Source: a virus
Direction: 5' to 3' (one strand)
Length of the DNA stretch: 30,894 nt
Virus record (IMG/VR): IMGVR_UViG_3300017598_001822
Span: 1 to 30,894 of that record
In this document: piece by piece, positions 1 through 18,400 of the stretch
Layout of the letters: each line of letters starts with the position of its first letter
Numbering within the stretch: the stretch's first letter is position 1
The notes under the pieces: model-generated
Told to the model about the DNA's origin: nothing
The model's input: the letters and a program-made list of their open reading frames with translations, nothing else
The model's database searches: none
Made by a program: the position numbers and the translations under genes

Positions 1-1617
1 TCATAACGACCCCCCGTAAACATCATCAATCTGTGAGATTACGCTAGTTACTATGCCGAGGTACTTTCCTGTATCACAGGCGTAAGTAGGATCATTCGCA
101 AACACATGATCGGCGGGATCTGAGGCACTGTCCCAATTATCTATGGAATGTGGTGTATTATTTGTTGGATTAATCCAAACATTGACAACTGTATCTGCGC
201 CGGTCCCCTGTATGGTTGCTCGTATCTTATCACCTGGACTTAAAACAAAAGTAGATGATGATTTAATATTGTTCTGCCATGTCGTCGGTCCACTAAAGGT
301 CTGCCACTGTAGTAATGTTGTTGATTGATTGTAATATAAATTATACCGACTACCTGTTGTCCCAGGGATTCGAAACTGAATCCCATTAAGACTACCAGAA
401 GGAACATCTATGTAAGTAAACCCAAAATACTGCGCCAGGGTTGAAGTCTCTGTGGCGTACCTTAACAATGCTTGCCCAGAGGGTGAGGCTAACTCTCCGG
501 AGGATATTGAATAATCCCCTGAGTCTTCAACCCAATCACCAGAAGTTATTGTATCACTACTAAAGTCATCAGAAAATATAGATGCCAACGCTGAACTAAC
601 CGTACAAACCGCATCAGTTACATGAGCTCCACTCATATCAACAACCCAGTTAGGGTCTGAGCCTGTAACCCCTGTACCAGTGCAACTCGATGTTTCGTCA
701 TCGTCTGCGGTAAAGGTAATAGCCTCAGTCGCACTGGATAGTCCGGCCCATGTTTTAGGAGTGTCACCCACATTAGCGGCGACCTCATCAACAGTAAAAG
801 TAGACCCTGTGCCAGTGGCATCAGTGATTGCCATTGTTAGGCTATAAGTAGTAGGAGTTAAATTTGTCCAATCTGCAATAACAAAACTATCCCAGTCGCC
901 AGAAGATATACAAAGTCTACCTGTAGTCGCATCGGCAAAGGCATACTGACCAGGAGTACAAGCCTCATCAGAGTAAGTAGGAGCGGGTGTTACATAACCA
1001 CCAGTTCCACCTACACCATCCGCCAGTTTTGCTGAAGTGACTGCACCATCCGCCAACTGTGTAGTATCAATCCCACCGTCTTTAACGCTAATTTCAAACT
1101 TTCCATCACCACTATCAATAGCCCCGTTTAATCCTGTCCCGACCTTTGCCTCTATTACATCTGCGATATCCTGCTTTGTAGCAAACTCATCAAACAACCC
1201 ACCACTACCCACAGTGTGATCAGTATTACCATCAGTCGGAGTGGCATCCATTGTTTCATTGGCTTCGCCTGTTGCACTGGCTTCACTCGCAACTTCTAAG
1301 ATCGCTGCTTGCACGGTTGTAGCCGCTACTGTACCACCAGGGGCAAATACGACCTCTGATGCTGTTTGATCGTCTGTGTTAGTCTCTTTATCAGTATTAG
1401 CAACAATCGCCGCCGCCTGCCCTGATGTGATCCCAGTTTTATCTGTGTTTAAATCGACTTCAGTCTGGTCAGCCTTGCTATTAACCGCAGCTTTCACCGC
1501 ATTGGCATCAGCCGCCGTAAATGACCCGCCAGTGGTTTTATCCGACCATGTAACATCTGTTGCGCTTACGCTCGTTGCTAACAATCCCAAGGTGAGAGCA
1601 ATTAGTATTTTTTTCAT
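1..1617 (-). CDS. Secreted tail-fibre-like protein with Sec signal peptide and LamG-like C-terminus
   Basis: 538 residues, complete. It opens with a classic Sec signal peptide: MKK, a hydrophobic core to about residue 14, then SVSA before TD, giving a predicted cleavage after Ala19. Residues about 20-200 are low-complexity and fibre-like (a FATKQDIADVIEAKVG stretch, then DTTQLADGAVTSAKLADG), typical of phage fibre shafts. Around residue 217 a C-x(n)-C segment (ACTPGQYAF to LCISSG) follows. The last roughly 190 residues (from FSDDFSSD) look like a LamG/concanavalin-type beta sandwich, often sugar-binding. The start is supported by AGGA about eight bases upstream, overlapping the stop of the preceding gene, so translation is probably coupled. 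It is the last gene of a unit with its own promoter. The signal peptide is odd for a virion protein. It may be an exported adhesin or host-surface-modifying protein rather than a fibre. The signal peptide is seen; the function is inferred. Confidence 0.85.
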   Translation of the reverse strand: MKKILIALTLGLLATSVSATDVTWSDKTTGGSFTAADANAVKAAVNSKADQTEVDLNTDKTGITSGQAAAIVANTDKETNTDDQTASEVVFAPGGTVAATTVQAAILEVASEASATGEANETMDATPTDGNTDHTVGSGGLFDEFATKQDIADVIEAKVGTGLNGAIDSGDGKFEISVKDGGIDTTQLADGAVTSAKLADGVGGTGGYVTPAPTYSDEACTPGQYAFADATTGRLCISSGDWDSFVIADWTNLTPTTYSLTMAITDATGTGSTFTVDEVAANVGDTPKTWAGLSSATEAITFTADDDETSSCTGTGVTGSDPNWVVDMSGAHVTDAVCTVSSALASIFSDDFSSDTITSGDWVEDSGDYSISSGELASPSGQALLRYATETSTLAQYFGFTYIDVPSGSLNGIQFRIPGTTGSRYNLYYNQSTTLLQWQTFSGPTTWQNNIKSSSTFVLSPGDKIRATIQGTGADTVVNVWINPTNNTPHSIDNWDSASDPADHVFANDPTYACDTGKYLGIVTSVISQIDDVYGGSL

Positions 1618-1621
1618 TTCA

Positions 1622-2611
1622 TCATCCTAAATTAAATGGGAAAGTATAAGGGAACGTGGAGTTCTCAACAGGCATTGGATTACCATCACCGTCTAACCAG
1701 ACATTACCGTCGCCATCCAATAGATAGTCACCAGTAGGTGGAGCAACAGGTATGTAGCATTTCAATACTCTTGTTATTAAAGCAGACTCAGCAGACTGAT
1801 CTGAACTGTAACCACCAGCACCCAGCTGACCTATCCACAAGTAATCAACATTAATCTCAGTCACATCCATCCACTCTTCCCAAGTATGGACAATAGGCGC
1901 CATGGAATCAGAGGAGTCAAAGAGAACGTCACCACCAAGGTCACTGTCAATTGCTAAGGTATCAACGTTAGAAGGGAAGCTGAAGGACATATCCATGAAG
2001 TCGTCACACGCATCCAACTCGATGTTGTCAAACAAAGTGTACGTGGAGGCATCGGTACAAAACAAATGTATGTGTGTTACTTCTGTTGTCGCTGTGAAAT
2101 AGAGTGTAGTTTGTTCTAATGCGAAGCCGCCGCTCGTAGTATCTGAGGTGAACGCTACCACATCATCAGCACCAGCAGTAGTACCTACGCTGTAACCGTA
2201 GTTCGCTGAAGTACCCTCATGAGCATTAATAATAAGCTGGTAAACTGTACCTACAGTAGTTGACCTGACTTGTCGTGCAAAGCCCATTGGTGTTGCGCTT
2301 GCTTGGACCTCCAACATATAAGTTGTGGCCTGGAAACTAGCTGCTAAGGTTGCGGAGTTCCCAGCTTCCCAGTGATTTGTCCCATCCTCAAAGTCACCGT
2401 TGTCCATCAGGTTGTCACCAACTGCAGTGGCATCAGTGATAGTTAATGGTGCGCCTAATCCAACGATGTCTAAAACTGGATCGGAATGATATAAGAGATC
2501 TTCTTGGTTAGGGAGTTCACTGTCAATAGTGAGTACAACAGGGTACCTGGGGAACAACCCTAAACTCAAGACAGGTTCAGTGGGGTGGTTTGGCGGGTAC
2601 CTGCACATCAT
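1622..2611 (-). CDS. Putative tail protein with galactose-binding-like (CBM-type) domain
   Basis: 329 residues. Residues about 66-200 read like a carbohydrate-binding jelly roll of the CBM4/9 or galactose-binding type: the entry motif NLMDNGDFEDGTNHWEAG, alternating strands, and a closing TLFDNIELDA. The C-terminus carries a tandem DGDGN motif (YLLDGDGNVWLDGDGN) of the kind that can bind calcium, then a proline-rich end. The first roughly 60 residues are proline-rich and unrecognised. The start overlaps the stop of the upstream 97-residue gene by four bases (ATGA), and a second ATG directly follows it. The gene sits between a small fibre-like gene and the signal-peptide fibre gene and shares their promoter. 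The likely role is host-surface binding, which is inferred from the fold and position. No enzymatic motif is visible. Confidence 0.8.
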   Translation of the reverse strand: MMCRYPPNHPTEPVLSLGLFPRYPVVLTIDSELPNQEDLLYHSDPVLDIVGLGAPLTITDATAVGDNLMDNGDFEDGTNHWEAGNSATLAASFQATTYMLEVQASATPMGFARQVRSTTVGTVYQLIINAHEGTSANYGYSVGTTAGADDVVAFTSDTTSGGFALEQTTLYFTATTEVTHIHLFCTDASTYTLFDNIELDACDDFMDMSFSFPSNVDTLAIDSDLGGDVLFDSSDSMAPIVHTWEEWMDVTEINVDYLWIGQLGAGGYSSDQSAESALITRVLKCYIPVAPPTGDYLLDGDGNVWLDGDGNPMPVENSTFPYTFPFNLG

Positions 2612-2901
2612 GATATAACTCTTAAGCCTAGCTCATTACCAGCACTAGCTGACTTGTTAAATCTACCATAGATAGGAGCGTAGAAAGTTATCACATCATT
2701 GGTAGCGTTGATACTGAGTTCACTGTCATTTAAAGTAGCGACCCTATAGGCGCCGTTAGCATTAAGAATTTCAAAATTAATAGTCTGACCTGCTGCAGGT
2801 TTACCTATGACTTGGAAGGATTGGGCACGGAGTACGCCGTATTCTTGGACGGCTAATGTAGAGGCATCTACTGTTGGTTCTATAAGGACTTGAGTGGGCA
2901 T
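2608..2901 (-). CDS. Small beta-rich tail-associated protein, first gene of distal unit
   Basis: 97 residues, not assigned to a family. The sequence is beta-strand rich (INFEILNANGAYRVATLNDS) and has no cysteine, membrane segment or signal peptide. The ATG is preceded by GAGG at a spacing of seven bases, and a strong sigma70-like promoter lies about 30 bases upstream. It therefore leads a three-gene transcription unit with the galactose-binding-like and signal-peptide genes. Its size and position suit a fibre-attachment or small fibre-cap protein, but nothing in the sequence proves this. Confidence 0.75.
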   Translation of the reverse strand: MPTQVLIEPTVDASTLAVQEYGVLRAQSFQVIGKPAAGQTINFEILNANGAYRVATLNDSELSINATNDVITFYAPIYGRFNKSASAGNELGLRVIS

Positions 2902-2931
2902 TTAATTACCTCATTAATTTGGATTTTTAAT

Positions 2932-2960
2932 ACTATACCTTAAATATTTTTTATTGACAA
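2932..2960 (-). promoter_or_regulatory. Strong sigma70-type promoter for the distal three-gene unit
   Basis: On the minus strand TTGTCA (2955-2960) is followed after exactly 17 bases by TATAGT (2932-2937). Each hexamer differs from consensus at one position. The spacer is A/T-rich, and the expected transcription start is near 2925, leaving a leader of about 24 bases with a GAGG ribosome-binding site. It lies in the 62-base gap after the 75-residue gene, one of the few real gaps in this cluster. It should drive the 97-, 329- and 538-residue genes independently of the long late transcript. Confidence 0.75.
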
Positions 2961-3537: not shown

Positions 3538-4160
3538 TAGCTTACCTCCACTACTGTCAGAATTTCAAAAGTAGTTTCACCGTCGGGGAAGGGTATTGTG
3601 CTGGGTGGCGTCAGCTTGTAGGAGTGGAACTCCACAGGGTAGACTACCTTGCACTTACAAGGTATTTCACCGCCTGTTATAGTACAGGACAGGTCGCTGT
3701 TGTTGGTGGTCAAGCCAGTCCCCTTATTCCCGTACCAAGTTTCGTCTAAGGGACCGTTTGGTTTGTAACTCAGAGATGGCTTGTTATCTACGGAGTCCAA
3801 CTCAATGAAGTCAAGGGTTTGCTCTCTATCCTGAATAGTGGTACCTAGATAGGTAATGTCGCCAGCTGAACTGCTTAAGGATAAATTACCCATGCCACTA
3901 CTGAAGTGTACCAAGAAGTAGTACTCGTCATCTTGGGTGAATATCGACTTCTCTTCTGTGGTGGTGGCTGTACCTTGAATGTGGGAGAGGTATTCCTTGA
4001 GGCTTATGGACCCGTTGGTATAGGCGACAATGTAGTCGTACACGGTCAGCTGTGGAGTACCAGAATCTTGGACGTTGTTGACTGGGTCCGACTCTACAGA
4101 AACAGTGGCGTCAGCCCCAGAAGCAAAGGTAACAACTACGGTAGAGAGTACGTTACTCAT
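3537..4160 (-). CDS. Tail-tip protein of unknown function
   Basis: 207 residues from the ATG at 4160. A TTG one codon earlier is possible but sits only four bases from the GAGG ribosome-binding site, whereas the ATG is at the better spacing of seven. The protein is beta-rich, with an EYYFLVHFSSG segment in the middle and a CKC pair near residue 170, and it lacks signal peptide, coiled coil or membrane segments. The 5' end overlaps the 886-residue hub-like gene by eight bases, implying coupled translation and probably association with that protein. The family is not recognised. Confidence 0.75.
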   Translation of the reverse strand: MSNVLSTVVVTFASGADATVSVESDPVNNVQDSGTPQLTVYDYIVAYTNGSISLKEYLSHIQGTATTTEEKSIFTQDDEYYFLVHFSSGMGNLSLSSSAGDITYLGTTIQDREQTLDFIELDSVDNKPSLSYKPNGPLDETWYGNKGTGLTTNNSDLSCTITGGEIPCKCKVVYPVEFHSYKLTPPSTIPFPDGETTFEILTVVEVS

Positions 4161-6813
4161 CAATAGACCTCAGAATAAATTGTACATCAGGTAACGTTGG
4201 CGAGGTCACCAACCATTTCATGTACCTAGTCTTATACCGCACCTTCAACAAAGATTCACCTAGAATGTCTGCAGTAAGTTGACCATCCTCAGTAAAATCC
4301 ACAGCACCTAAGTCTACTTCGTCCCAGTCATACTCTACAATACTGTAGACTGGTTTCGATACGCTACCGACACCAGAGACAAACTCTATAAGTTCAGGAT
4401 CCTCTGTGTAGAGCGGAGTGGTCACCTCAAACTCACCTACGTACTGGATAACCACATCGTCACCACCAGAGGTCTCCAGCACTGACTTGTCGTGCAAAGC
4501 CCAAGGTACTTGGTACCCTAAGATTTCTTTTTGCGTAGCAGAAATCTCTACCTCTTCCCAACTGTACGTTTCAGAAGAAGTATCATGATCAGATACGTTA
4601 ACCGTGTTGACCCCCGTACCCTCTTCCTTACTTACTGATAACTCCTTGAAATGTAGGTAGTCGTTCAGGGTACCTTCAGTAGCAGCCGTTACCCAGTCGG
4701 GGGTACGCTCTTGGTACTTGTGGACCACCTCAATACTCCCGTCTGGTTGGGACTGCAGGATACCGCCCATACTATTAACCAAGGTACGCAACACAGCGAG
4801 AGGTTTCTCGTCACTAGCTATGAAGGTCCCAGCCTGTACTGTCTGGTCCACTATGGCACCCTTATGTTTGAGGTTCCAAGTAAGAGACACATCTTTTAGT
4901 GCAGCAATATTTGTAGCTAGAACTGAAGCCAACCCTTCTGGGAATTCCTGCTGTAAGGTGTCGGTGTCCCTATCGTCAAGGAGAACCGCAGGGCTTCGAC
5001 AGACCACAGTACGTACACTGGACTCCAACTTAATTTGCTTCTGTACCTCTGTAAGGATAAGGTGAAAGTCTACGTCACCAATAGTGATCACTACAGGAAC
5101 GTGTCGAGTAAGTAAGTGGTAGTACGCAGGATTATTTAGTGTGAAAGCACCGCTGATATAGTACTGTCCTTTGGAGCGCTCCACATTTATATCATTAAAT
5201 GGCATTGGTGTACCGGACACCGTTACACCTACGGGAGTGGCAGTCGCTCCTGGGGGAGGTGCGGGTTGGCCTGGGACGTTTGGTTGTGTGACGTAGACTG
5301 TACGGCTGCTTGCCCCCACTATGTTGTAGAGGAAGTCATAGTAACCCTCGGCAAAGTTAATATTCTCTATGTCATATATGAAGTCATAACTGCTGGTTAC
5401 CTGGTTGCCCGTGATGTTATAGAGCAGGTTGTAGAACTGTACAGCAGGCAGGTAGCAGTCGTATTTAAAGTCATAGGTTTGAACTGTGCGATGAGCTTGG
5501 CTGTACAAGAAGTTGTAATACTGTGTGGTTTCAGGGGCAGATTGATAATAGAAGTTATATATGGATATGGTTGTGGGCGCAGCCCCATAAATAAAATTGT
5601 AGTACTTCAGTGCGATGTCGCCGTAGATCAGGTCGTAGTAATTCGTTACCAGATTACCTGTGAAGTCATACAGCAGGTTGTAGTACTGATCTGTAATGTA
5701 GTTGTAGTTGTGGATGTCGTACTTGAAGTCGTAATAGTTGGTTACTAGTCCGGTCGGTAATGCTACAGTGAATAGAGTATCGGTTAAGCTGAGGTTGGTG
5801 GTGTTGATCCAGTCGTCAGATCTGACCACGTTGGATACACGAACCTCTCTTACGGCCCCGGAAAACAAATGGTTCACATCAGAGTTCTTACCAATAAGTA
5901 AACTATTTGAGCTGCCAGCCATTGTGTCATACCCATTGGCAGTCAAAGTCTCTTTAACACCATCGACAAATAAATCTCCGACCAATCCAGTGGAATTGTA
6001 TGTACCAGCAATTACAAAATCAGTGTCAGCTACCCAAGAAGCTTTTGTACCCTGTATGTTACCTCCGTTTGTCCCTAGCTGTAAAAGCCCACTTGAATTT
6101 ATAAAAAAATTATAAGTATCCTCATTGTCTGTGGGGACATATGACCTGCTTACTAATCCAACAAGATTTGTCAATGACGAGTCCATCAAAACGTTGGATG
6201 TGAACGACATTTCCAACGTCAAGGTAGTGGTAATGTTATGAGCCGCATTGTAGCCGTGATTAGTGTAGTCATCAGTACCATCATACTCAAGCATTTTACC
6301 CACAGTACCGTCTATTAAATCTCCGCTAGTCATAGAACCGTAAGATGTACCATGCATGGCGTAGTTAGTGGAATCCAACACTTGCGGGGCGGTACCGCTA
6401 GGGTCTTGAGCCTGGTGGGAAAGGAATACAAAGTTATCATCCCATACTTGTTGGGCTGGGTTTGTGCCTGTGGTACCTATATAGGCAGAGTTGTCACTGT
6501 TAGTAGAGTCGTAGTCCAAAGTTAAAACAGTGTCAGCGCTACTACTTACAGAAGGTACTTTAACGTGAATAGCAGCACGTTCGTCAGCAACATCCCACTC
6601 CTCAACTTCACAGTATAGCTCATTGTCGTTAGAGTCAGTAACATGGATCTTCTTCCAGTCGTCAACACCAGGTAGTTCTGTAAAGACATCAGAGCAGTCA
6701 AGGGAAGTAAGCCCAGAACCTGCAGATTGTAAACTCAATAGAACAGGGAAGTCTGTTAATGTGCTGCCGATGTCGTCCGAAGAGATTGTATATGTGAGTT
6801 TCTTATCTGCCAT
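4153..6813 (-). CDS. Tail hub-like protein fused to DUF2341-like/LamG-like domains through Tyr-rich repeats
   Basis: 886 residues in several parts. Residues 1-115 match the DUF2341 pattern (FPVLLSL early, then LYCEVEEWD and AAIHVKVPSV). Residues about 125-335 look like a LamG/concanavalin sandwich (GKMLEYDGTDDYTNHG; LFVDGVKETL; LIGKNSD). Residues 358-500 hold ten tyrosine-rich repeats. A proline-rich linker follows (508-530). Residues about 540-886 look like a tail hub or central tip protein of the late-control-D/gp27 type (VPVVITIGDVDFHLILTEVQ; a PLAVLRTLVNSMGGILQSQPDGS segment). The gene starts in a TAATG overlap with the zinc-ribbon gene, with GAAGG upstream. The likely role is the central tail tip carrying a surface-binding head. 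The hub assignment is an inference; the repeats are directly visible. Confidence 0.8.
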   Translation of the reverse strand: MADKKLTYTISSDDIGSTLTDFPVLLSLQSAGSGLTSLDCSDVFTELPGVDDWKKIHVTDSNDNELYCEVEEWDVADERAAIHVKVPSVSSSADTVLTLDYDSTNSDNSAYIGTTGTNPAQQVWDDNFVFLSHQAQDPSGTAPQVLDSTNYAMHGTSYGSMTSGDLIDGTVGKMLEYDGTDDYTNHGYNAAHNITTTLTLEMSFTSNVLMDSSLTNLVGLVSRSYVPTDNEDTYNFFINSSGLLQLGTNGGNIQGTKASWVADTDFVIAGTYNSTGLVGDLFVDGVKETLTANGYDTMAGSSNSLLIGKNSDVNHLFSGAVREVRVSNVVRSDDWINTTNLSLTDTLFTVALPTGLVTNYYDFKYDIHNYNYITDQYYNLLYDFTGNLVTNYYDLIYGDIALKYYNFIYGAAPTTISIYNFYYQSAPETTQYYNFLYSQAHRTVQTYDFKYDCYLPAVQFYNLLYNITGNQVTSSYDFIYDIENINFAEGYYDFLYNIVGASSRTVYVTQPNVPGQPAPPPGATATPVGVTVSGTPMPFNDINVERSKGQYYISGAFTLNNPAYYHLLTRHVPVVITIGDVDFHLILTEVQKQIKLESSVRTVVCRSPAVLLDDRDTDTLQQEFPEGLASVLATNIAALKDVSLTWNLKHKGAIVDQTVQAGTFIASDEKPLAVLRTLVNSMGGILQSQPDGSIEVVHKYQERTPDWVTAATEGTLNDYLHFKELSVSKEEGTGVNTVNVSDHDTSSETYSWEEVEISATQKEILGYQVPWALHDKSVLETSGGDDVVIQYVGEFEVTTPLYTEDPELIEFVSGVGSVSKPVYSIVEYDWDEVDLGAVDFTEDGQLTADILGESLLKVRYKTRYMKWLVTSPTLPDVQFILRSIDE
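5314..5742 (-). repeat. Ten tyrosine-rich coding repeats, period about 14 residues
   Basis: Within the hub-like gene, ten units of the form (Y/F/S/T)Y(D/N)(F/L)x-Y begin at residues about 360, 377, 392, 404, 418, 432, 446, 460, 475 and 491. Examples are YYDFKYD, YYNLLYD, YYNFIYG, YYNFLYS and YYDFLYN. Five consecutive starts (404 to 460) are exactly 14 residues apart, and the outer ones 12-17. DNA copies have diverged, so the repeat is old or selected at protein level. The antisense strand is open here only because of this codon pattern. Confidence 0.9.
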
Positions 6814-7118
6814 TATACCTTCTCCACACTAATTTTTGAATATTGGCACTTGTCACACTTTAATATAGTCACCATAGTACCGTCTAAATCCTCCCGTCTG
6901 TACATCAAGAACACCCCACCACAACTAGGCTCAGTACACTGGGTTTGGGGTGGTGGTACTGTATTGTCAACAGACTTATCAGTATGTCTTTCTCTTATAG
7001 CATTGTCTACCAACACCTTAGCCTCAGCAACATCTGTTACCCCATCTTCTAACATACGTTTAAGTACAACAGAAAAAGTCTGCAGCCCACCTAGATTTAT
7101 AGGATTAAATATTCTCAC
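6813..7118 (-). CDS. Small zinc-ribbon protein
   Basis: 101 residues with a GTG start immediately after the stop of the 704-residue gene; a GGGGGTG stretch just upstream serves as ribosome-binding site. The C-terminal half holds a four-cysteine zinc-ribbon pattern: CTEPSC, then about 21 residues later CDKC. The N-terminal half (FSVVLKRMLEDGVTDVAEAK) is helical. It sits between two large tail-tip genes. It may be a structural zinc-binding tail component or an assembly factor; a regulatory role is possible but unsupported. The zinc pattern is seen; the function is unknown. Confidence 0.75.
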   Translation of the reverse strand: MRIFNPINLGGLQTFSVVLKRMLEDGVTDVAEAKVLVDNAIRERHTDKSVDNTVPPPQTQCTEPSCGGVFLMYRREDLDGTMVTILKCDKCQYSKISVEKV

Positions 7119-9233
7119 TTAACACCCCCACTCATAGTACCGTAATCCACCATTTGCGATAGTGTAATGATACTCTCTTATGCCACCGTTACCGCAGTAA
7201 GTGTGGATATTTGTTACATAATGTTTGTTATAACGGGCTATCGCACCATCACCACAATCAGCCATTAAAAGATTCTTTATACCAACACTACCTGAATACG
7301 GTGTATAGTAGGAGATTGCCGCTAGTGTATGTGTGAGGCATGTGTTAATTTCTGGCCTCCTGCTGTCCCCTTCTGGACAAATAACCTCTTCACCAATACA
7401 TTCTACGCAATTTTGTGTGTTTGGCCCATTTGGATCACACCCCCCGTACCCCCAGGACTGTGCATTGAATACTCCTTGGCTTATATCTTCAACTTGTCTT
7501 CTTCCATTACTTTCGTGTATGGCTGTTACTGATGAAGGGTTCGGTTCTGACAGTGCCTTAGAATAGGAATCTGCAGTCCCAACCATCTCACACACACCAG
7601 AAGATACCAAATGCCAACTACCGTTATCAGACAATAGAAACATAGTGGCTGTGGAGCAGCCATCGGTTACTGTCAAGTGGGTCCTGCCACAAAAATCATC
7701 GTCGCCATATATAGTAACGTTCCTGGTTTCAACATCTATTGTAGTCTTGTTGTTGCTGAAACGAGTAGCCGGGTTGGTAAGGGTGAATGTTAAGGGTAGT
7801 AAACCGCCACTAACGTAAACAACCACACTCTCGCTGGCAGGTAAAATTTCCGGTGTAGACTCCCTGTCTATCTCTATGGGTACTGCACCATCACAACAAC
7901 TCTTCCTGGTGACAGATTGTATTTGAGCTTCCACCCCACACTGTCCACCGACTGGTGATATGGGTATGAACTGTACGTCAGTGCCTTTATATTTCTCCCT
8001 CCAGTAAGTGGTACCTCGTTCTATTTCCACCCCTCCATAGTAGGGGTTGTACCACACCTCACATAACGGCAGTATGTCAGGAGGTTCACAACACACTTCT
8101 TCATAATAATCTGGGTCATGCAGGTTAGAGGCGCCGAAAGGACCACAGTCTATGTGGGTTTTGACAGTGAAGTTCTCAACAACAGTATCGGCAGAAGAAG
8201 AGTGACCATCAGGGCACTGTGTAGGTACGTACTCAACCTCGTCACCTTGATAGGCACCACCACATCTACAGTGCTGTCTCTTTGTTACCTTGGTAAAACA
8301 CTCACCGTCACCAGAAATAGTGCCACCTATGTTATTAACAAAGGTACATATGTCTTCATTACCTGTCTCCTCTGGTACCAAGGTGAGGTGCTGAATCACA
8401 TCTCGATAGTAGGCAGTGACTACAGCAGATTGAGCTTTACCATCCTCATCAACAGGTAGCTCTACCTTTACTCTATCGTAGATGGTGGTGTAGTTTACAT
8501 CAACAGTAGTCGTTATCTCCTGGTCAAAGTTTATGGTGTCGCCGTCCTGCAAGTCAGCGTGTACAGCGTCACCATCGCTACCAGTCTTGGAGATAATGTC
8601 AGAGGAGAAAGATACGTCAATATTAGACGTTGCCGGGGTGTTTAACTCCAGGGAGTCTGAGTTGTCTACGGCCAACGTCTCTGTAACCTGTTCAGTGACT
8701 ACGGACTGCTCCCCTAGGGTACCGTCGGATATCTCCAGGCTATAAGGTATGTTGTCTTGGCTTTTGTAAACTCTGAGGTAGACAACATTGTCAGTCTCAC
8801 ATTCAGAGTCACCACCTAAGAACTTTGAGACAGCATCCTGCATTGTGACGCCGTTCAACATAGCCTCAGCCTCAGCCCGTGGGTCTGTGACAGTATTTAC
8901 CACTGTCTCGTCGACACCTACCTCATCACCAACCTCTGTGTTCGCTGGGTCCGGCTGTGTAGTGGTAGTACCTGTCAGGTCGTCTGGGTTGGTACAAGGG
9001 TCCAAGCCAGCGGCGGCGTCCACCATGTCGGCAGTGTCTGCCAAGGGAGCCAACAACTCTTTGGGCTCCTGCTGGAGTATGATGAAGTAGTTCTCATCTA
9101 TGTCCTTGGGGTACAATGTAATCTTTGTACCCACCACGTCATCAGTCACACTAGACCTACCTACATTACCGACAACTGTGCTGTCAGAGAAGGAAGGCTT
9201 TGTGAACTGCTGATTGAGACTGACTTTTGTCAC
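7119..9233 (-). CDS. Cysteine-rich tail-tip protein
   Basis: 704 residues with 25 cysteines, 23 of them after residue 290, including CC pairs at 381-382 and 446-447 and a terminal Cys704. Residues about 75-172 hold a module shared with the two upstream genes (a GLDPCTNPDDL motif and SLEISDGTL). Around 470-530 there is an Ig-like or SprB-like segment (VYVSGGLLPLTFTL to LTVTDGC). The C-terminal 60 residues contain two similar Gly/Tyr/Cys elements (CGDGAIARYNKHY and CGNGGIREYHY). No signal peptide or CxxC-paired metalloprotein motif is evident. The ATGA overlap couples it to the upstream gene. It is likely an exposed tail-tip component; the cysteines could form disulfides after release, or bind metal. 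It is not recognised as a named family. Confidence 0.8.
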   Translation of the reverse strand: MTKVSLNQQFTKPSFSDSTVVGNVGRSSVTDDVVGTKITLYPKDIDENYFIILQQEPKELLAPLADTADMVDAAAGLDPCTNPDDLTGTTTTQPDPANTEVGDEVGVDETVVNTVTDPRAEAEAMLNGVTMQDAVSKFLGGDSECETDNVVYLRVYKSQDNIPYSLEISDGTLGEQSVVTEQVTETLAVDNSDSLELNTPATSNIDVSFSSDIISKTGSDGDAVHADLQDGDTINFDQEITTTVDVNYTTIYDRVKVELPVDEDGKAQSAVVTAYYRDVIQHLTLVPEETGNEDICTFVNNIGGTISGDGECFTKVTKRQHCRCGGAYQGDEVEYVPTQCPDGHSSSADTVVENFTVKTHIDCGPFGASNLHDPDYYEEVCCEPPDILPLCEVWYNPYYGGVEIERGTTYWREKYKGTDVQFIPISPVGGQCGVEAQIQSVTRKSCCDGAVPIEIDRESTPEILPASESVVVYVSGGLLPLTFTLTNPATRFSNNKTTIDVETRNVTIYGDDDFCGRTHLTVTDGCSTATMFLLSDNGSWHLVSSGVCEMVGTADSYSKALSEPNPSSVTAIHESNGRRQVEDISQGVFNAQSWGYGGCDPNGPNTQNCVECIGEEVICPEGDSRRPEINTCLTHTLAAISYYTPYSGSVGIKNLLMADCGDGAIARYNKHYVTNIHTYCGNGGIREYHYTIANGGLRYYEWGC

Positions 9234-10075
9234 TCTGTATCCTTTACATATATTTTCCTGGTACCCAGGACTTTACCATTACAGGTGTCATAAGCTATCT
9301 GTACCTTCTGTTTTTTATCAGGATCGTCACTACTACTTTGTGCTACTGTGGTGCCGCCAGCCAACTCTTTAGTATTGTCACAAGGATCCAAAGCCGCAAT
9401 CACGGAGTCAGGTATCTCTATATCGGTTGCTGTTGCGGCACTGTTTGAATCTGTGCTGGTCTCTGTGTTGACATTACCTACACTAGCCGTCACTGACAGT
9501 GACACGTCCTCAAGGCTGTACCTAGATTCTTTCGTCACTGTGAAAACTACCTCATAGATGTATACTGGTAAGGTAGCGTTAATTCTGAGCACCCCAAATA
9601 TTGTGTAAGGTGACAGTAGTTTAGTACCTGATACTGTCAGAGGTGGTGGTGCAATTACGTTACCTAAAGAAGTGACAACATCAGACACCCACTTAGGTGT
9701 GAAGTCGGTGACTCGGTAGCCCAAGGGTAACTCTGTATCTAACTCAAAGATCTTGTTAAACTCACGGGCTAGGAAAGACTCCTCCACAAAAGTAGCTTCG
9801 CCTATATTAGACTGCACTACTGGAATGAACCCAGGTTTGTTAACAAAAACAAAAAGAGGTAGGCGAACAGTAGCATCCCCGTTAGCGCCAAGTGTGACTA
9901 GGTTGTTAGCAGTGCTGTAGGTCTTAGCGGATATACCTGACAACGCCAACGTCAGCATGGACTGCAGGTCATCAAAGTTTGCAGTGGCCTCTGAGAACGC
10001 TGACTCTATTTTAATTTCCAGAGACTCCGTTACATCCTCTTCTCTGGTGTATGTGACGTTGTGGGTAGTGATCAT
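9230..10075 (-). CDS. Tail-tip protein sharing modules with its neighbours
   Basis: 281 residues. It opens with THNVTYTREED, similar to the THGVTFTKPTG opening of the upstream 304-residue protein. The C-terminal part (AALDPCDNTKELAGGTT, then a second Cys before GKVLGTRKIYVKD) resembles residues 75-158 of the downstream 704-residue protein. The middle is beta-rich with several proline-containing turns. ATGA overlaps link it on both sides. The three proteins look like variations on one tail-tip theme, probably interacting subunits near the tail end. The family name is unknown. Confidence 0.75.
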   Translation of the reverse strand: MITTHNVTYTREEDVTESLEIKIESAFSEATANFDDLQSMLTLALSGISAKTYSTANNLVTLGANGDATVRLPLFVFVNKPGFIPVVQSNIGEATFVEESFLAREFNKIFELDTELPLGYRVTDFTPKWVSDVVTSLGNVIAPPPLTVSGTKLLSPYTIFGVLRINATLPVYIYEVVFTVTKESRYSLEDVSLSVTASVGNVNTETSTDSNSAATATDIEIPDSVIAALDPCDNTKELAGGTTVAQSSSDDPDKKQKVQIAYDTCNGKVLGTRKIYVKDTE

Positions 10076-10986
10076 GATATAGTTTCGTATTTCACTTCCT
10101 GAGAACAGTAGTCGATGTAAGTCTTCTTGTCTGTGGTGTCGCCTGGGTGTTTAGGTGGCCATTTGTCGCTGTCGCCTTTGTGGGAGAAACCTGTGCCAGA
10201 CCCAGTGTAGGTCCCATTAGCTCCGGTACCAGGCACGTTGGTACCTGAACCAAAGCCACAATCAATAGTATTCTTAGCGTAGTCGTCACTGCCCTCAGGC
10301 ACGTTGATGTCCAGCCACACTACCCCACCAGAATATCTGGCATAAACTACGGTGTCAAAAACATTTTCTAGAGCGTCAGCAAGAGGAGTAGCATTAAGGG
10401 AGTAAGACTCCCTGTACGTAACGTACTCAACTGATAATACTCCAGTAACTTTTTCTGTCAACTGTAAGGAGTACACATCGTTTGATACTCGTGGCTCATA
10501 CACCCTATTTCTCGCTGTGTCGTAGACAGCGTTCTTCCAAGTAGTGGATACTATTCTGTGGCAAGGGTATTTTAAGTCCACTCTATCCCTGTTTGAGAAG
10601 GTTACTAACTCAGTAACAGAGTAATTCAGGTCAATGGAGGCAGGGGTCAGGGTGCCGTTAGTAGTTTTTATTGTGTACGGTTTACCTCTCCTATAGATGT
10701 AGGCGTGTATAGTAGTTTTGAGAGAGCCACCGGACACACCGCACACGGGAGAGCTCATCAGTGAGGTGCTGGGGCTGGTAGTGTCAGCAGCAGTGCTGCC
10801 AGCAACCCCAGTGGCTGGAATGCTACCAACCATTGTCTGCAGGTTCGCGATGAACTGTGTTGCCATGTCTGAGACTGTTACTTTACCTGTGTTACTCTCC
10901 CAGTCTTCCTGCTCTAGTAGGAGAACCTTTGCTACCTCTACACCAGTAGGTTTGGTAAAGGTTACTCCATGGGTTGTCTTAGACAT
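10072..10986 (-). CDS. Minor tail protein, probable tail-tip component
   Basis: 304 residues. The N-terminus (THGVTFTKPTG) and a central segment (SPVCGVSGG, then KPYTIKTTNGTL) resemble parts of the two following tail proteins. The C-terminal 60 residues are Gly/Ser/Asp-rich and flexible (GTGANGTYTGSGTGF), ending in a DYCSQE segment. The start shares an A with the preceding stop (TAATG). The position after the tape measure and two short tail genes suits a distal tail or tail-tip role. No enzymatic signature is present. Confidence 0.75.
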   Translation of the reverse strand: MSKTTHGVTFTKPTGVEVAKVLLLEQEDWESNTGKVTVSDMATQFIANLQTMVGSIPATGVAGSTAADTTSPSTSLMSSPVCGVSGGSLKTTIHAYIYRRGKPYTIKTTNGTLTPASIDLNYSVTELVTFSNRDRVDLKYPCHRIVSTTWKNAVYDTARNRVYEPRVSNDVYSLQLTEKVTGVLSVEYVTYRESYSLNATPLADALENVFDTVVYARYSGGVVWLDINVPEGSDDYAKNTIDCGFGSGTNVPGTGANGTYTGSGTGFSHKGDSDKWPPKHPGDTTDKKTYIDYCSQEVKYETIS

Positions 10987-12014
10987 TATACAGACTCACA
11001 GGATATACCCACTGTGCATCTGTTGGTGGAGAAAGTTCCAGCCCCTGCTGGTATAACCCTGTTGAACACAGGCAATACACTAGAGTCGTGAGTGTCAAAC
11101 ACTACGGTATCACCATTAACAAAGGTACCACCCCAAAATCCTGAGGAAACAGTGAAGTATAGGGCTGATGCTCCAGAGTTGGCTGGCTCGTAATCAGAAG
11201 CAGTAGTTCCAGAAGCTATTGCTCCTGTCCTCGCCCCACTCACAGTAAAGGTAGTAGCGTCAGAAAATAAGATAGTCCAAGTATCCTCAATGGTGCCGAC
11301 ATTGTCCATGAGGATTGGGTAAGTGGTGTCGTCTATGGTGCCGCCAGCGCTGGTTTTTACCAAAGAATCGTAGTTAGCAACCACAGTACCAGCCTCATGT
11401 ATTAGAGAAACTCTGGTACCGGATGCTACTGTGTAAGCGTTTTCTAAAGCAGTTGATATGGTGATGGTGACTTGGTTACTTGCTACCACGGGGGCGCCTG
11501 AGACAGTCTTGGTCTCTGTAGTGCCTGTGGTGGAATCAGGGTACAGCTTATTGGTGATTCTAATAAGGTCAGTATCTCCAATTGAAGTAGTCAATGTCCT
11601 GGAATAGGTATCAGCAGCGTCTGGTGTAGGGAAAGTTACGATGAGTGTGGTTGCCCCTGCGCTGGCGTCGGTGGAGAGGTTAGCCACAGAGTATAACTGT
11701 TCGGACCCGGTAATATCAGCGGCAGTGTCTCCCTGGTCTTTAATCACAAAGTATACGTAATCGTCAGCAGTAGTCTCATTATCCACCCAGATTCGCATAT
11801 TCTGTGCGGAAGCCCTGCTGGTATTGTGGTTGCAAGTATAGGCAAACCGTACTGTGCTGGATCCGTCTGTACGCTCCTGCTCAAACACACTACCAAATAA
11901 ATTTTGGGAGGAAGACCTGGGGATCTCATTGTAAGATCTATGCCCACCATTTGCGCTGGTATCATTTTCAGTCAGCGACCTATACATTACTAATTCACTC
12001 TGTAGAACTGCCAT
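10986..12014 (-). CDS. Virion structural (minor tail) protein sharing a module with the tail tube protein
   Basis: 342 residues. Residues 1-110 resemble a structural family seen next to tape measures in siphophages (NLFGSVFEQE early, then NMRIWVDNETTADD). Residues about 112-205 form a beta module (STDASAGATTLIVTF; VTITISTALENAYTVASGTR). Residues 225-308 are clearly similar to residues 115-200 of the major tail protein: DTWTILFSDATTFTVSG against DTWMVVFSSATAYDVYG, and FWGGTFVNGDTVVFDT against FTGTWAAGDTFSFTT. AGAGGT supports the start, and TAATG overlaps the 128-residue gene. It is probably a distal tail or tube-interface protein, an inference from position and the shared module. Confidence 0.8.
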   Translation of the reverse strand: MAVLQSELVMYRSLTENDTSANGGHRSYNEIPRSSSQNLFGSVFEQERTDGSSTVRFAYTCNHNTSRASAQNMRIWVDNETTADDYVYFVIKDQGDTAADITGSEQLYSVANLSTDASAGATTLIVTFPTPDAADTYSRTLTTSIGDTDLIRITNKLYPDSTTGTTETKTVSGAPVVASNQVTITISTALENAYTVASGTRVSLIHEAGTVVANYDSLVKTSAGGTIDDTTYPILMDNVGTIEDTWTILFSDATTFTVSGARTGAIASGTTASDYEPANSGASALYFTVSSGFWGGTFVNGDTVVFDTHDSSVLPVFNRVIPAGAGTFSTNRCTVGISCESV

Positions 12015-12400
12015 TATACAACCTCTTTTAAAGTTATTGTTCCGTAGTATATATCAGTAGAGACGTGACCAAACATTTTTCTTAGTGGTGTGACCGCTAA
12101 CGGGTTTGCTTCCACCTTCACATTTAAAGTCTTACTGCCATAAATAAACTGCACTGTTTCTTGGGAGGCCTCAAGAGACTTCACATAATCCAGCTGGGCC
12201 TGAGTGAACATACCCCGGCTACCTGAGTCACTACCAGAAGCCACCAACTGGATGGTCCTGCCGTTGTCGCCCACGTACATGAACTGTGAGGAGTAACCGC
12301 CGTCAATGTCGAAGAAGTCGTCCTGGGCTACCAAGGCCTCGCTTAACTCATTCTCCCAGAACACCCCTCGGTGTAACTCCATTGTGCCTAGTTGTATCAT
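12014..12400 (-). CDS. Minor tail protein following the tape measure
   Basis: 128 residues. The pattern LHRGVFWENELSEALVAQDD near the start, followed by GRTIQLVASG, resembles a small siphophage minor tail protein in which an aspartate/glutamate-rich opening is followed by a GRPITL-like motif. The ATG overlaps the tape-measure stop by four bases. A second ATG at 12382, with TAGG five bases upstream, would give 122 residues. The position directly downstream of the tape measure matches lambda gpM and tail-tip initiator genes. The role is inferred. Confidence 0.75.
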   Translation of the reverse strand: MIQLGTMELHRGVFWENELSEALVAQDDFFDIDGGYSSQFMYVGDNGRTIQLVASGSDSGSRGMFTQAQLDYVKSLEASQETVQFIYGSKTLNVKVEANPLAVTPLRKMFGHVSTDIYYGTITLKEVV

Positions 12401-15400
12401 GAGCTTGCTGCCTCTAGTGTTTTAAATTGTCTGGCTAACATCATAGCATCTGTTGGTGTGGCCAGGATCTGTGCAGACTTGCCACCTATATTGATGTTTA
12501 ATGTACCAAAAGAACTCAAAGAAGACAAGTTATCAGTCGCACCAGAAGATGGTGTGGAAGAAGCAACAGGTATGGTCTTGGGTCTAGCTGACGCTCCCTG
12601 TATCACATTCTTCAGAGCAACCCCTGCCTCACTTGCTGGTTTGTGTACAGCCTGCATGAACCAATCGCCTACAGATCTGGACCAAGAGGTGACAACTTCA
12701 TCAGTAATAAACCACTCACCAGGTCGGGCTAGTACTGGTAGCTTATCCTTTTGTGACTTGGTACCAGGCAGCCTGCCACCTGTCGCCATCTTGTGGACAG
12801 GGCCACCGTCGTGCAGAGCTTGTCCACCTTCATTCTTTAACTTTACAGGAACTTCAACAGAGATAGACTTACTGGCCATGCGCACCCAATCTTTTAACTG
12901 CTGGTTGGCTACAGTGGTGTCTATCTTCACATCAGAAGGATAAGAGTCCAAATAGGCTTGGATATCCTCAGTCAATTTATTGACATCTCTATCAGCTATA
13001 GGCGCTATTACTAACTTAGCAGGCAAGCCATCTACTTCCTCTATCCAGAATTCCTCTATCTTCTTGACAGCGGGAGCAATATCACCATCAGAAGGTGGCC
13101 CTATTGTTATCTTAGCTCTGGCTTCAATTTCCTTTTTAGCAGCACCCTCTACGGCTTTAGCTACTTTTTTCTCCACAGCGGGGGTGGCCTTCTCTACCCC
13201 TTCTTCCACACCTTCTTTTGTTCCAGTGGCTGTAGCTTTCTTGGTGGCCTCTGCAACGGGCTGGGTAAAGTCTACGGCATTTTGGGGTGAGTCACCACCT
13301 ACAGGGGCGGCAGTTGGTGTCACTATTGAGTCCTGCTTCCCAGCAGCTACACTAACTAACTCACGTTGTTTTGCTATCTCAGCATCAGCATTAGCCATAA
13401 ACTTTAGGTGGCGGGTTTTTTCTTTCTTTGCCCACGCATCGTACATACTATTTATGGCAGTCATTTTAGTGTTGAACTGACTTAACGCCTTTGCTAGTGC
13501 TTCCCTCTCCAACCTGTCTATCTTAGACAGTTTATACCTGTGGGCTTTAACCTCATTGTTTACCTTAGTATTAAGCTCTGAAAGTTCTACTTTCTTTTCC
13601 GCCTTCCGTGCGGATATCAGGGCTTTCTCAACTTTCTTCAGGCCACTGATAGCATCCCCAGAGTCCTCTAAACTACCGTAGTATTCCCCTGCTTTTGTGA
13701 TCAGTTCTTGTGCCCTATCTATAGCAGCAGAATCTCCAGCCCGTCTAGCAGCAGCTAATTGAGAGGTACCCTTAGATAACTTCTCATTGGCTCGCTCCAG
13801 GGTGGCTACTTGCTTGGCTGCCTCAGACATACCCTTTGTCTGGATGCCAAAAATCTTGTCAGCTATGTCGCCGGATATAGACTTGATGTCAGAAGCGGCC
13901 TTTCGCTCTATCTCTATACGAGCCTTTGCTGCCTCTTTCATTTTTAAGTTGAAAGCTGTGACTGCTTCCAATCGCTTAGTGGCAGCATCCTTTTCTATCT
14001 CTACTATCTTGTCGCCATAAGTCTTGTGTGCTTGTACTTTGTTATTTAGTAACTCCTTACCCTTGGCATCCATCCTGGCATTTACTTTCAAGACCTCATC
14101 AGCCTGTTTTTTCTCCTGAGCCACTATTTTGTCAGATGCTGCCTTTCTTGCTTTAGCAAAATTCTTCAGTTGTTGTAGTTTGTATTTAGCTATTTGTTCC
14201 TGGACAGACAACTCTTCTCTGGCCGCTACTGCTAGGGCCTCTTTATCCCCAGTCTTGCTAACCTCTCTTTTGTATTTCTTAACCTCAACTAATAATTTAC
14301 CGTAAGCTTCTATGGTGTTCTCTATTACTTTAATATCAAAGGCATCACGGTCTTGGTCTTCAGGGGCGGTGGTAGCGTAGTCAATTTCTAGAGTTAAGGT
14401 ACTTGCAGCCAAGTCCTTCTCGATCTTCTCCTTCGCTGTTTTATAGTTACTTACCTGCTTAGCAATAGCAGCCTTCTCTACTTTTTCCTTCTGTTTCTGA
14501 GACTCCTTCAGTTGTTTTAACTCGTACTGTTTAAACTGTTTCTGTAGAGCTATCTGTTCTAACGTTGCAGCCTCCTGCCCCGCTGTATCTTCCATTACTG
14601 ACTTATAATCAGCAGCAAGAGCCAGCATCTCCTTATAGTGCGCTATTCTTAGCTCAGTTTTAGCCAACGCATGTTGGGTTTCATCCTGCTCTGCAGAACT
14701 TAAAGAAACAAAAGCCTTCTCTACTGTGAGTAGCTCTGAAGCTAGATCCTTAGCTATTTTAGCCTTGGCTACTTTATAGGCGTCCGTTTGGTTCTTTACA
14801 TACCTACTTGTTGCTGCCTTCTCTACCTTCTCCTTGTGTTTCTGAGAGTCCTCCACTTGTTGCAGCATGTACTGGTCATACTTCCTCTGCAGGGTGAGGC
14901 GCTCCCGTCCTGCCTTGGCAACAGCCTCAACATTATCCGTTTTACCTACTTGGTCTTGGTACTCTTTAGCCTTAGCCAGCAACGCTTCATAAGCTTCTAT
15001 GTTTTCCTCTAGTATCGCTTTCCTGTGGGCGTCTGGATCTTGTTTACTAGAGGGTAACTTTACATATTCTAGTTCTATGTTGTAGACGTCTTTTGCTAAC
15101 TCAGCCTCAATCTCTTTCTTGGCAGTCTTGTACGCACTTATTTGGTCTTTGATAAATTGCTTAGGATCGGTAACGTGTAGTCCCTGCTCTACGCCAGCAA
15201 CAGTAGCCTTGCCTAACTCCTTACCTGCTTCATATGCATCTACTTGATGATCTACTATGGCCTGGAGCACATCACCAAGAAGTTGCTCCTGTAGATCAAC
15301 CCCAGAATCACCCACAATGCCTGTTGCTTCAGCTAAAAGGTCCTTAACACTAACATCACCTAAAGCACTAGCTAGGTACGCTGTGCGGTTTGTCAGGTCC

Positions 15401-18400
15401 TTTACACTGTCGTCAGCCTGCTGCACTGCTAAGTTGTACTCCGCAGTGGTCATAGTAGCTTTAGCCCAAGAACTAGTCTGTAGCTTGTCAAGTTTCCTGT
15501 ACGCTATGTATAGTTGTTTGAGCTTGCTCTCCAACTCGGCAGTCTGGACTACACGTAACCGTTTGGAGTCGGCCTCGTTCAGGGCTTCTATGACTTCAAG
15601 GAGCTTTTCATTGCTGTCCTTAGCGTTGTCAATCTGTGTCTTGTACTTGGGGTACAGTTCCACTAAGGCTTCAACTATTTCTTGTCTCTCTTTATCCCCT
15701 ATATTCGCATTGGACAACTGCGTAGTGTAGTCAGACAAGGCACTCATGTTAACTTCCATCTCAGTAGCCTGATCTCTGAGAGCGATGGTGGCTAGGTTGA
15801 GGTTCTCTTGGTAGTTGTAGAGTTTGGTTACCAAGACCCCTATAGCCACGGCTGCAATACCAAAGGCGTTACTAACAAGTAGAGTATACAAACCACGTAA
15901 TGACATCTTTAAACCGTCTACGGCTAAAGACGTGGACATCATACTAATCCGTAGAGTGGTCACCCCACTGACTATACTCTGCAGGGCTGCTACGACAAAA
16001 CTAGACCTAGCAAACCAGCCAAAGGCTAAAGAAAGCCCTTTAACCGCAGTAAGTAATAAGAGTACTTTACCTGTGGTACCAGCAATAGCATTGTTGGTGA
16101 GGAACTCCAAGGCGTCAGCTAGAGCACGGGCACCATCAACGAGGGAGGTGAAGACCGACAGCAGCCCTTGGTCACCCATCCCAATATAGATGTTCTTAAT
16201 CTTATCTTGTAGGTTCTTGAACTTCAGCGTCAAACCGGAAAGTTGTATTGCTGCCATGTTAGAAGCAGTACCAGTACGCTCTACTACTTCCCTCATTTTA
16301 TCCAGCGAGTCTACGTTACGTACCAAACCAAGGATAGCTGTTGTAGCTCTCTTGCCAAAAAAGGTGGAGGCGTCTGTGACGCCAACAACCACATCTTTCA
16401 GGTTACGCATTACTTGGTTAAAGCCTAAGGTCTTTACATCTAAATCCGCAATAGACTTACCGACCCCAGCCAAGGCGTTAGCCAAGGCTTGGTTAGGCGA
16501 GGCCAACTCTAGGATAATTTTCCTGAAACTGGTACCCATGGTACTTGCCCTAAGACCTTGGTTAGCCATGGTCATCAGAGCAGCAGCAGTATCTTCTATG
16601 GTCATACCTACGGTGGCTGCTACAGGGCCAACGTAGTTAAAAGCAGTACGTAACTTGTCTACTGTTAACTTAGAGCTGTTAACTGCATTCGCAAAGGTGT
16701 CAGTTATTCGTGATGTGTCTTTGGCCTGGATCCCGTAGACCCTCATAGATGTGGTTACTAGATCCACAGTGGTCTGCATATCTGTTAGTGTACCAGTGGC
16801 CAACTCGGTAACATCTGGTATTGCTGCCGTGGCTTCTGCAGCAGACAAACCAGCCTGCCCTAGGATCTTAGCACCCTCAGCAGTCTCTACAGCGGAGAAT
16901 TTCGTGTCAGATGCTGTCTGTCTTATGACAGCATTCATCTTCTCCATGTCACTAGCAGTAGCATTAGTGATGGCTTGGAGGTCTTTTAGGGCTTGGTCAT
17001 ATGTAGAGATAGCAGTGACGGCACTACGTACTTCTTGAACCACAGCAAAAACAGCACTAGAGGCTACGACGTAACCAACGTAAGTCTTAAACCGCTTATT
17101 AAGTGTCTGTATAACGGACGCCATAGGTGACATAGCAGCGGCGGCGGCCTTCTGTCTCAGCGTCAATATCGTTAACGCTTGAGTGGCTTGGTCTGTATTC
17201 TTCTTCAGGTATCGTAGGTTTTCAATTACCTTTCTAGCAGAAGCCCCATATTTGTCTTGGGACAACAGCAACTTGTTGTAGGTTTTTTGTAGGGAGTAGT
17301 AGGCAGATCGTGCTCGGTCAGTAGCCTTAGCTTTTGCTTCCTCTGCAGCCTTGGTCTTTCTAGCAGCAGCGTCAGCAGCAGCAGCCTCCTCTTTATGTAG
17401 CATTGCCAAACCTTTTAAACTATCCTCTAAGGCGTCAATGCTGTGTTTGGTCTTGTCAAATTTTAGTATAAGATTGTTAGCCGCCCTAGTATAATAGCTA
17501 GTACCTGTTACTAATTCTGCGTATGTTCCTTGTAACTTTTTTAGGCTTTTATCCGTAGCAAGTAAGGCCTTGATTTTCTTTTCTTCAGCAGCCTGTAATG
17601 CTGCTGCGGCAGCTTTGGTTTGGGCTGCCGCAGTCTTCTGGAAGTCACTTAGTAACTGTAGCTTTTGCTTGGCAGTCTTAGCCGAACCTCCGGTCCTTTC
17701 CAGTGTTGCTATAATTTGTTTAGCGGAGGAGGAGTAAACTGTACCTGTTTTCAACAGGGCTCGGTACTGGTGGGAGAGATCTGTAGTGGCTGTGGCTGTC
17801 TTCCTTATAGCCTTTTCTCTAGCGTCTTCCTCAGCACTGGCTTTTTTCTGTAACTGAGACAGAGAATTAAGACGGTTCTTTAGTACTGCAAGGTCCCCGC
17901 CTTGCTTAGCATATAATTTTACTAAGTTAGTAGCAGACCTACCATACAGGTCAGTGGAATTTATTAGTTTATTTTGTTGGTAGTCAACTTGTGACAGTGC
18001 CCTATTGTACTCCTTAGCCGTAGGGTCCAATCGTTTAAAGTCTGAGTAAAGCTCTGACAATTGGTTGGACAGGACCTTAAACCCAGTATTAGTACCCACC
18101 CTGGGTACCATGGCTTCTATGGTGTCCCTAGCCTTGGTGCCTAATTTCGTGTTAGCGTCAATAAGCCTATGGTACTTACTATACAGAACCTCAAGGTTGT
18201 CTGCTGCCTTGCCCGTCTCGTCAGAACTAATTGCTGAGTTAAACTTATCCAACACAGAGGTGAAATCCTTTACCTCTTTCTCAGTCTTGTCATAAGCACC
18301 AGCAAGCTTTGACATCTCGTCGCTCTGCTTGTCGATCTCAGCAGTGGCTTTATTAATAGCAGTAGTGAACTTCTCTAACTGTGCGGTGCCTGAGCCGTCG

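Follow-up and report, generated by a model that had tools for sequence, protein, structure and literature searches.

Host range is set by tail fibres, which are assumed to assemble in the cytoplasm, as tail fibres normally do, and tail parts that are assembled there need no export. The Sec pathway by itself delivers its substrates to the periplasm, not to the outer face of the cell. Exported or released phage products have been described. The endolysin Lys44 of phage fOg44 is Sec-exported and has a genuine signal peptide (PMC6116005), and a signal peptide has been predicted for pneumococcal PblB (PMC4508584). In S. mitis, as summarised in the latter source, lysis sets PblB free, and it then binds to other cells. 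The open-access literature that we searched contained no report of tail fibres with a Sec signal in phages of Gram-negative bacteria.

The 538-residue protein and its tail operon

The window, i.e., the whole stretch of DNA analysed here, is one virus contig of 30,894 bases, the minus strand of which carries a structural operon of the siphophage type. The operon starts with a probable terminase and a portal-like gene, continues with the tape measure protein and leads on to the tail genes, and the order of its tail genes matches that of Vibrio phage SIO-2 and its kin. It contains the following features:

12397 to 18540, minus strand: tape measure protein (PF10145, E 1e-35), which marks the operon as a siphophage-type tail module
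4153 to 6813, minus strand: 886-aa tail protein with DUF2341 and Laminin_G_3 (Pfam, PHROG and tblastn matches)
1622 to 2611, minus strand: 329-aa tail-operon gene upstream of the fibre-like gene (alignment; blastp E 8e-11 and 7e-15 against L014/L015)
1625 to 1628, minus strand: AGGA ribosome-binding site of the 538-aa gene, 5' of the ATG, TTTAGGATGATGAAATG
1 to 1617, minus strand: coding sequence of 538 aa, fibre-like protein with signal peptide; complete open reading frame and last gene on the contig
1561 to 1617, minus strand: predicted Sec signal peptide, residues 1-19, MKKILIALTLGLLATSVSA (KK in the n-region, hydrophobic core, V-S-A at the cut)
1468 to 1560, minus strand: phage fibre N-terminal module, residues 20-50, TDVTWSDKTTGGSFTAADANAVKAAVNSKAD (seen when carriers with and without a signal are aligned; profile matches in 6 phage records)
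1291 to 1374, minus strand: fibre-type segment, residues 82-109, DDQTASEVVFAPGGTVAATTVQAAILEV, common to the L037 and L012 fibre-like proteins
4 to 585, minus strand: C-terminal region, residues 345-538, first read as LamG-like (no domain match; AlphaFold pLDDT 33)

The reading frame of 538 codons has its stop codon at positions 1-3, where the contig ends; the plus strand carries many stops over 1-1617, and the coding strand is the minus strand. The gene starts 4 nt past the stop of the 329-aa gene and is translationally coupled to the tail operon. Because of this spacing and the AGGA site, it should be made late, together with the tail proteins. The C-terminal ~130 residues encoded by the 329-aa gene recur in the phages L014 and L015, where they belong to the gene that immediately precedes the homologous fibre gene.

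Two other proteins of the tail region have peculiarities of their own. The 886-aa protein is a candidate for a signal-less receptor-binding part. Its C-terminus resembles tail proteins of Vibrio SIO-2-type phages, and its N-terminal 180 residues, within the DUF2341/LamG part, are 36% identical to a protein of a Methanoculleus archaeal virus; many short repeats of the YYDF/YNLLY type lie between these two parts. The 704-aa protein at 7119-9233 (minus strand) has 25 cysteines with a clustered C-x-C region, which is unusual for a tail protein and looks metal-binding or disulphide-rich.

An earlier note on this DNA had read a Sec signal peptide at the start of the 538-residue protein, and this was borne out. 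The N-terminus, MKKILIALTLGLLATSVSA followed by TD with a predicted cut at A19/T20, has two lysines, a core of nine residues with a mean hydropathy of 2.77, and V-S-A (V-x-A) at the cut, which gives it the positive n-region, hydrophobic core and small residues at -3 and -1 of a signal peptidase I substrate. Our signal calls rest on a simple Sec rule applied to N-termini, which only one of the 31 window genes passes, namely the 538-aa gene; by chance, it is passed by 1.5% of shuffled window N-termini and by 7% of shuffles of this protein's own N-terminus. Among the proteins of T7, lambda, P22, SIO-2, Tunturi_3 and Tunturi_4 to which it was applied, the rule flagged the positive controls Lom and Bor of lambda and no other structural protein (fibre, spike, tail, capsid or internal-virion). 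As far as can be judged from the N-terminus, export of the protein is strongly indicated.

The same note's view of the protein as fibre-like is likewise supported. The module (TDVTWSDK..FTAADAN..KAAVNSK) starts directly past the predicted cut, it recurs in phage fibre genes, and the first 113 residues align with the fibre-like protein of L037 at 47% identity (E 1e-17), an alignment that takes in the second fibre-type segment (DDQTASE...VQ.AI.EV). Being encoded in a tail operon and homologous to fibre modules, the gene is of the tail fibre or receptor-binding type. Among its relatives, tail-fibre PHROGs are matched by two proteins without a signal, those of L031 and L041, and phrog_892 ("tail fiber protein") by one with a signal, that of L012.

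A LamG sandwich in this protein, by contrast, found no support: searches of Pfam, PHROGs, NCBIfam and PDB sequences gave nothing above noise for it, and the real Laminin_G_3 match belongs to the 886-aa protein. AlphaFold models of the whole protein and of its C-terminus were unusable (pLDDT 34 and 33, respectively). A Pfam match to a tRNA methyltransferase lay under its cut-off and is meaningless, and weak C-terminal matches to sigma factors and portal proteins are due to chance. In 50,697 phage records, tblastn found no match to the protein or to its N-terminus.

Relatives with and without a signal, and the cassettes they open

Module relatives were found in IMG/VR by degenerate-DNA patterns for the short module and by tblastn scans; the patterns found carriers of the module, and full-length relatives of the 538-aa protein were not found in the viral contigs. 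In five other uncultured phages (L009/L012, L010/L014, L003/L013, L028 and L037), the module is preceded by a signal peptide. The signal sequences differ among the six carriers, the window included, but the cut position is the same, in that 6/6 have an alanine at -1, precisely two residues ahead of [VI]T[WY]. In L002, L004, L005/L015, L025/L041, L031 and L036, the module sits at residue 1-3 without any leader. The signal-less fibres of L015, L031 and L041 (N-terminus I-T-Y-x-D-K...FTxxDANEIKxxVNSK) share the module, the tail-region location and the fibre repeats with the window protein, but begin at the module itself, without the export signal that the window protein has. A further pattern match, L011, is unrelated and has only a signal-like leader in common.

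It could be argued that the 538-aa gene encodes a normal tail fibre of the cytoplasm, and that the hydrophobic stretch at its N-terminus plays no part in export but is an assembly element or a product of chance. Its fibre nature, its operon position and a sister phage without a signal (L015) would agree with this, but an A-x-A-type cut position kept in six diverged phages, the signals on neighbouring cassette genes (one of them Tat-type) and their absence from control fibres make it very unlikely. Even less credible, and hardly to be reckoned with, is the alternative raised in the earlier note that a host-derived secreted adhesin gene was acquired at the end of the tail operon. This would explain the signal peptide and the operon-end position. 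However, the module was found in phage contigs only, GTDB-wide pattern scans returned only unrelated or chance matches, none turned up in 398 Pseudomonadota genomes, and in other phages the signal-less forms lie among tail genes. The GC content of the gene (0.456) equals that of the rest of the phage, and a recent foreign origin, tested in this way, is not indicated by any anomaly.

The signal-bearing fibres open small cassettes of more signal-bearing, spike-like proteins (beta-helix, LamG, PKD, fn3 and a Tat lipoprotein):

L013, past the fibre: signal-bearing LamG-like and beta-helix proteins
L012, past the fibre: a further Sec-type protein and a beta-helix protein
L014, past the fibre: a signal-bearing PKD protein
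L037, past the fibre: a signal-bearing beta-helix-like protein
L050: a Tat-type lipoprotein (RRRFL...LFSVGC), an M14 carboxypeptidase with a Sec signal and an fn3-like protein with a Sec signal

Lysis-type or integrase genes come next after the cassettes. The Sec rule finds signals on 14 of the 17 cassette genes, versus zero to two genes per phage on the rest of that strand; the three that fail it are the L015 fibre, which truly has no signal, and two leaders that the rule missed. Since both Sec and Tat are used in the cassettes, it appears that export itself is selected. As a test of disulphide-driven export, cysteine content was weakly enriched in exported proteins (median 0.96% versus 0.69%, p 0.051). 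For the window phage, whose contig stops at the fibre-like gene, we infer a cassette of its own from these relatives.

Two observations on the cassettes may be added. The L050 gene at 1662-2945 (minus strand) is a phage-encoded M14 zinc carboxypeptidase with a Sec signal within an exported cassette, and two otherwise different exported spike proteins (L014, 9404-11407, and L015, 9323-11194) have a C-terminal Cys-rich motif, CSDLTQNGDETG.DCGGSCPACD, in common.

The sister temperate phages L014 and L015, both metagenomic contigs for which assembly chimerism is possible to some degree, share 8,009 bp at 97.3% identity, a stretch that reaches to the first codons of the fibre gene. Divergence climbs within the last few hundred bases of the gene preceding the fibre, similarity is absent from the fibre gene and from the one that follows it, and resumes beyond the cassette. 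At this same locus, the L014 fibre bears a signal, whereas that of L015 begins MSDITYTDK, without a signal; an integrase gene lies near the cassette in both. Because the two kinds of fibre occupy one locus, the cassette appears to be exchangeable and the signal optional, and because a sister phage does without a signal there, export cannot be essential to the slot.

Possible fates of the exported protein

The explanation that we favour, and to which we give about an even chance, is that the 538-aa gene encodes a phage-derived protein of the tail-fibre type that is made late, is exported by Sec and stays in the periplasm until lysis releases it as a fibre or adhesin. In such a protein, a signal peptide would have been joined ahead of a complete fibre N-terminal module, and cleavage at A19/T20 would leave an N-terminus that is essentially that of the cytoplasmic versions (TDVTW versus SDITY). 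To judge by its relatives, its gene would stand first in an exchangeable cassette for exported proteins of the adhesion or spike type between the tail genes and those for lysis or integration. The protein would be translocated and cleaved in late infection, would fold in the periplasm, apart from assembling virions, and would be released upon cell lysis. Once outside, its C-terminal part might bind surface glycans on cells or debris, and it could serve as a soluble adhesin or spike or could join tails after lysis via the retained module. At the level of sequence, the export signal, its conserved placement, the operon coupling and the cassette swapping speak for this explanation, and from there we infer a function outside the cytoplasm.

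Two readings of that function fit best, between which the sequence cannot choose: a soluble adhesin or spike that is stored in the periplasm and freed at lysis, as S. mitis PblB reportedly is, or the late arming of virions via the retained module. In a purely soluble product, the virion-type module would be superfluous, which counts against the soluble reading. A true virion fibre, which would be exported, undergo processing and perhaps disulphide bonding in the periplasm, and be joined to tails at or after lysis, would make sense of a mature N-terminus that is the same as the cytoplasmic fibre module; in L031 and L041, this module is part of fibre genes in the tail region. It would also suit the exchange of signal-bearing and signal-less forms between L014 and L015, the Cys-rich tail common to the exported spikes of these two phages, and the signals on Tunturi_1 proteins that are annotated as tail spike and virion structural proteins (see below). 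However, these phages also encode signal-less fibre candidates (in the window, 4153-6813), the cysteine enrichment of exported proteins is weak, and no virion proteomics was found, so that we hold such a fibre to be unlikely here. It is similarly doubtful, though conceivable, that some tailed phages let receptor-binding fibres or spikes mature in the periplasm via Sec (and Tat) and arm their virions only at lysis, with signal-bearing and signal-less forms as alternative alleles. If true, this would amount to an extracytoplasmic assembly step in tailed phages.

The protein might also act in the envelope or on the surface of the producing cell, as a superinfection-exclusion, receptor-mask or lysogenic-conversion protein made from fibre parts. 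Precedent for this comes from lambda lom, a gene for an exported outer-membrane protein that sits between the tail genes J and stf, and the integrase genes near the L014 and L015 cassettes and the Tat-type lipoprotein of L050 would be in line with it. Yet coupling ties the 538-aa gene to the late tail operon, the 4 nt that separate it from the preceding gene leave no space for a promoter of its own, the outer face is not reached by Sec alone, and neither a lipobox nor a transmembrane or outer-membrane anchor was found in the protein, which together render an action on the producing cell rather improbable. Of the earlier proposal of a secreted or surface-displayed phage product made from fibre parts, which might be an adhesin, a receptor mask or a decoy, it holds that fibre parts are addressed for export, given that signal and cut recur in six phages and that neighbouring spike-like genes carry Sec or Tat signals. 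Surface display is without direct support, because Sec alone leads to the periplasm and the protein showed neither an outer-membrane passenger nor an anchor.

Returning to a fibre or adhesin that is freed at lysis, export-tagged fibre, LamG and beta-helix proteins that recur as an exchangeable set, together with similar export-tagged spikes in a cultured phage, suggest that adhesins may be deployed by some tailed phages away from the virion under assembly. If true, this would open a new way to superinfection control, debris clearance, attack on biofilms or capsules, or late arming of particles. Annotation pipelines call such genes "tail spike", and the signal is overlooked.

Comparison with known systems

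Lys44 resembles the window protein in being a late phage protein with a signal peptide, but is a lysis enzyme and not a fibre. Lambda Lom, like the window protein, is a Sec-exported product of the tail operon that adjoins fibre genes. It differs in being an outer-membrane protein that is not made from fibre parts, and the 538-aa protein had no Pfam, NCBIfam or PHROG match to a Lom-type family. The prophage adhesins PblA and PblB are fibre-like phage proteins that act as adhesins, but their hosts are Gram-positive, and the likeness to the window protein is one of analogy alone.

A cultured counterpart is Tunturi_1 (PP887698.1), an isolated podovirus of Tunturiibacter, which has clear Sec signals on gp14 ("tail spike") and on gp16 and gp17 ("virion structural protein"). 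The paper describing it (PMC11924767) mentions neither signal peptides nor virion mass spectrometry. These three spike-region proteins (4270-11367 in our record L056), two of which are Cys-rich (gp14 with 20 and gp17 with 32 cysteines), resemble the cassettes of the window's relatives as Sec-signal, spike-like proteins past the tail genes and ahead of the endolysin, and the exported beta-helix-like protein that L037 encodes past its fibre is a homologue of gp17 (E 1e-12). Tunturi_1 differs from the window phage in that it is a podovirus of Acidobacteriota, and the window's N-terminal module was not seen in gp14, gp16 or gp17. With its culturable host, it makes the question of soluble adhesin versus late arming testable.
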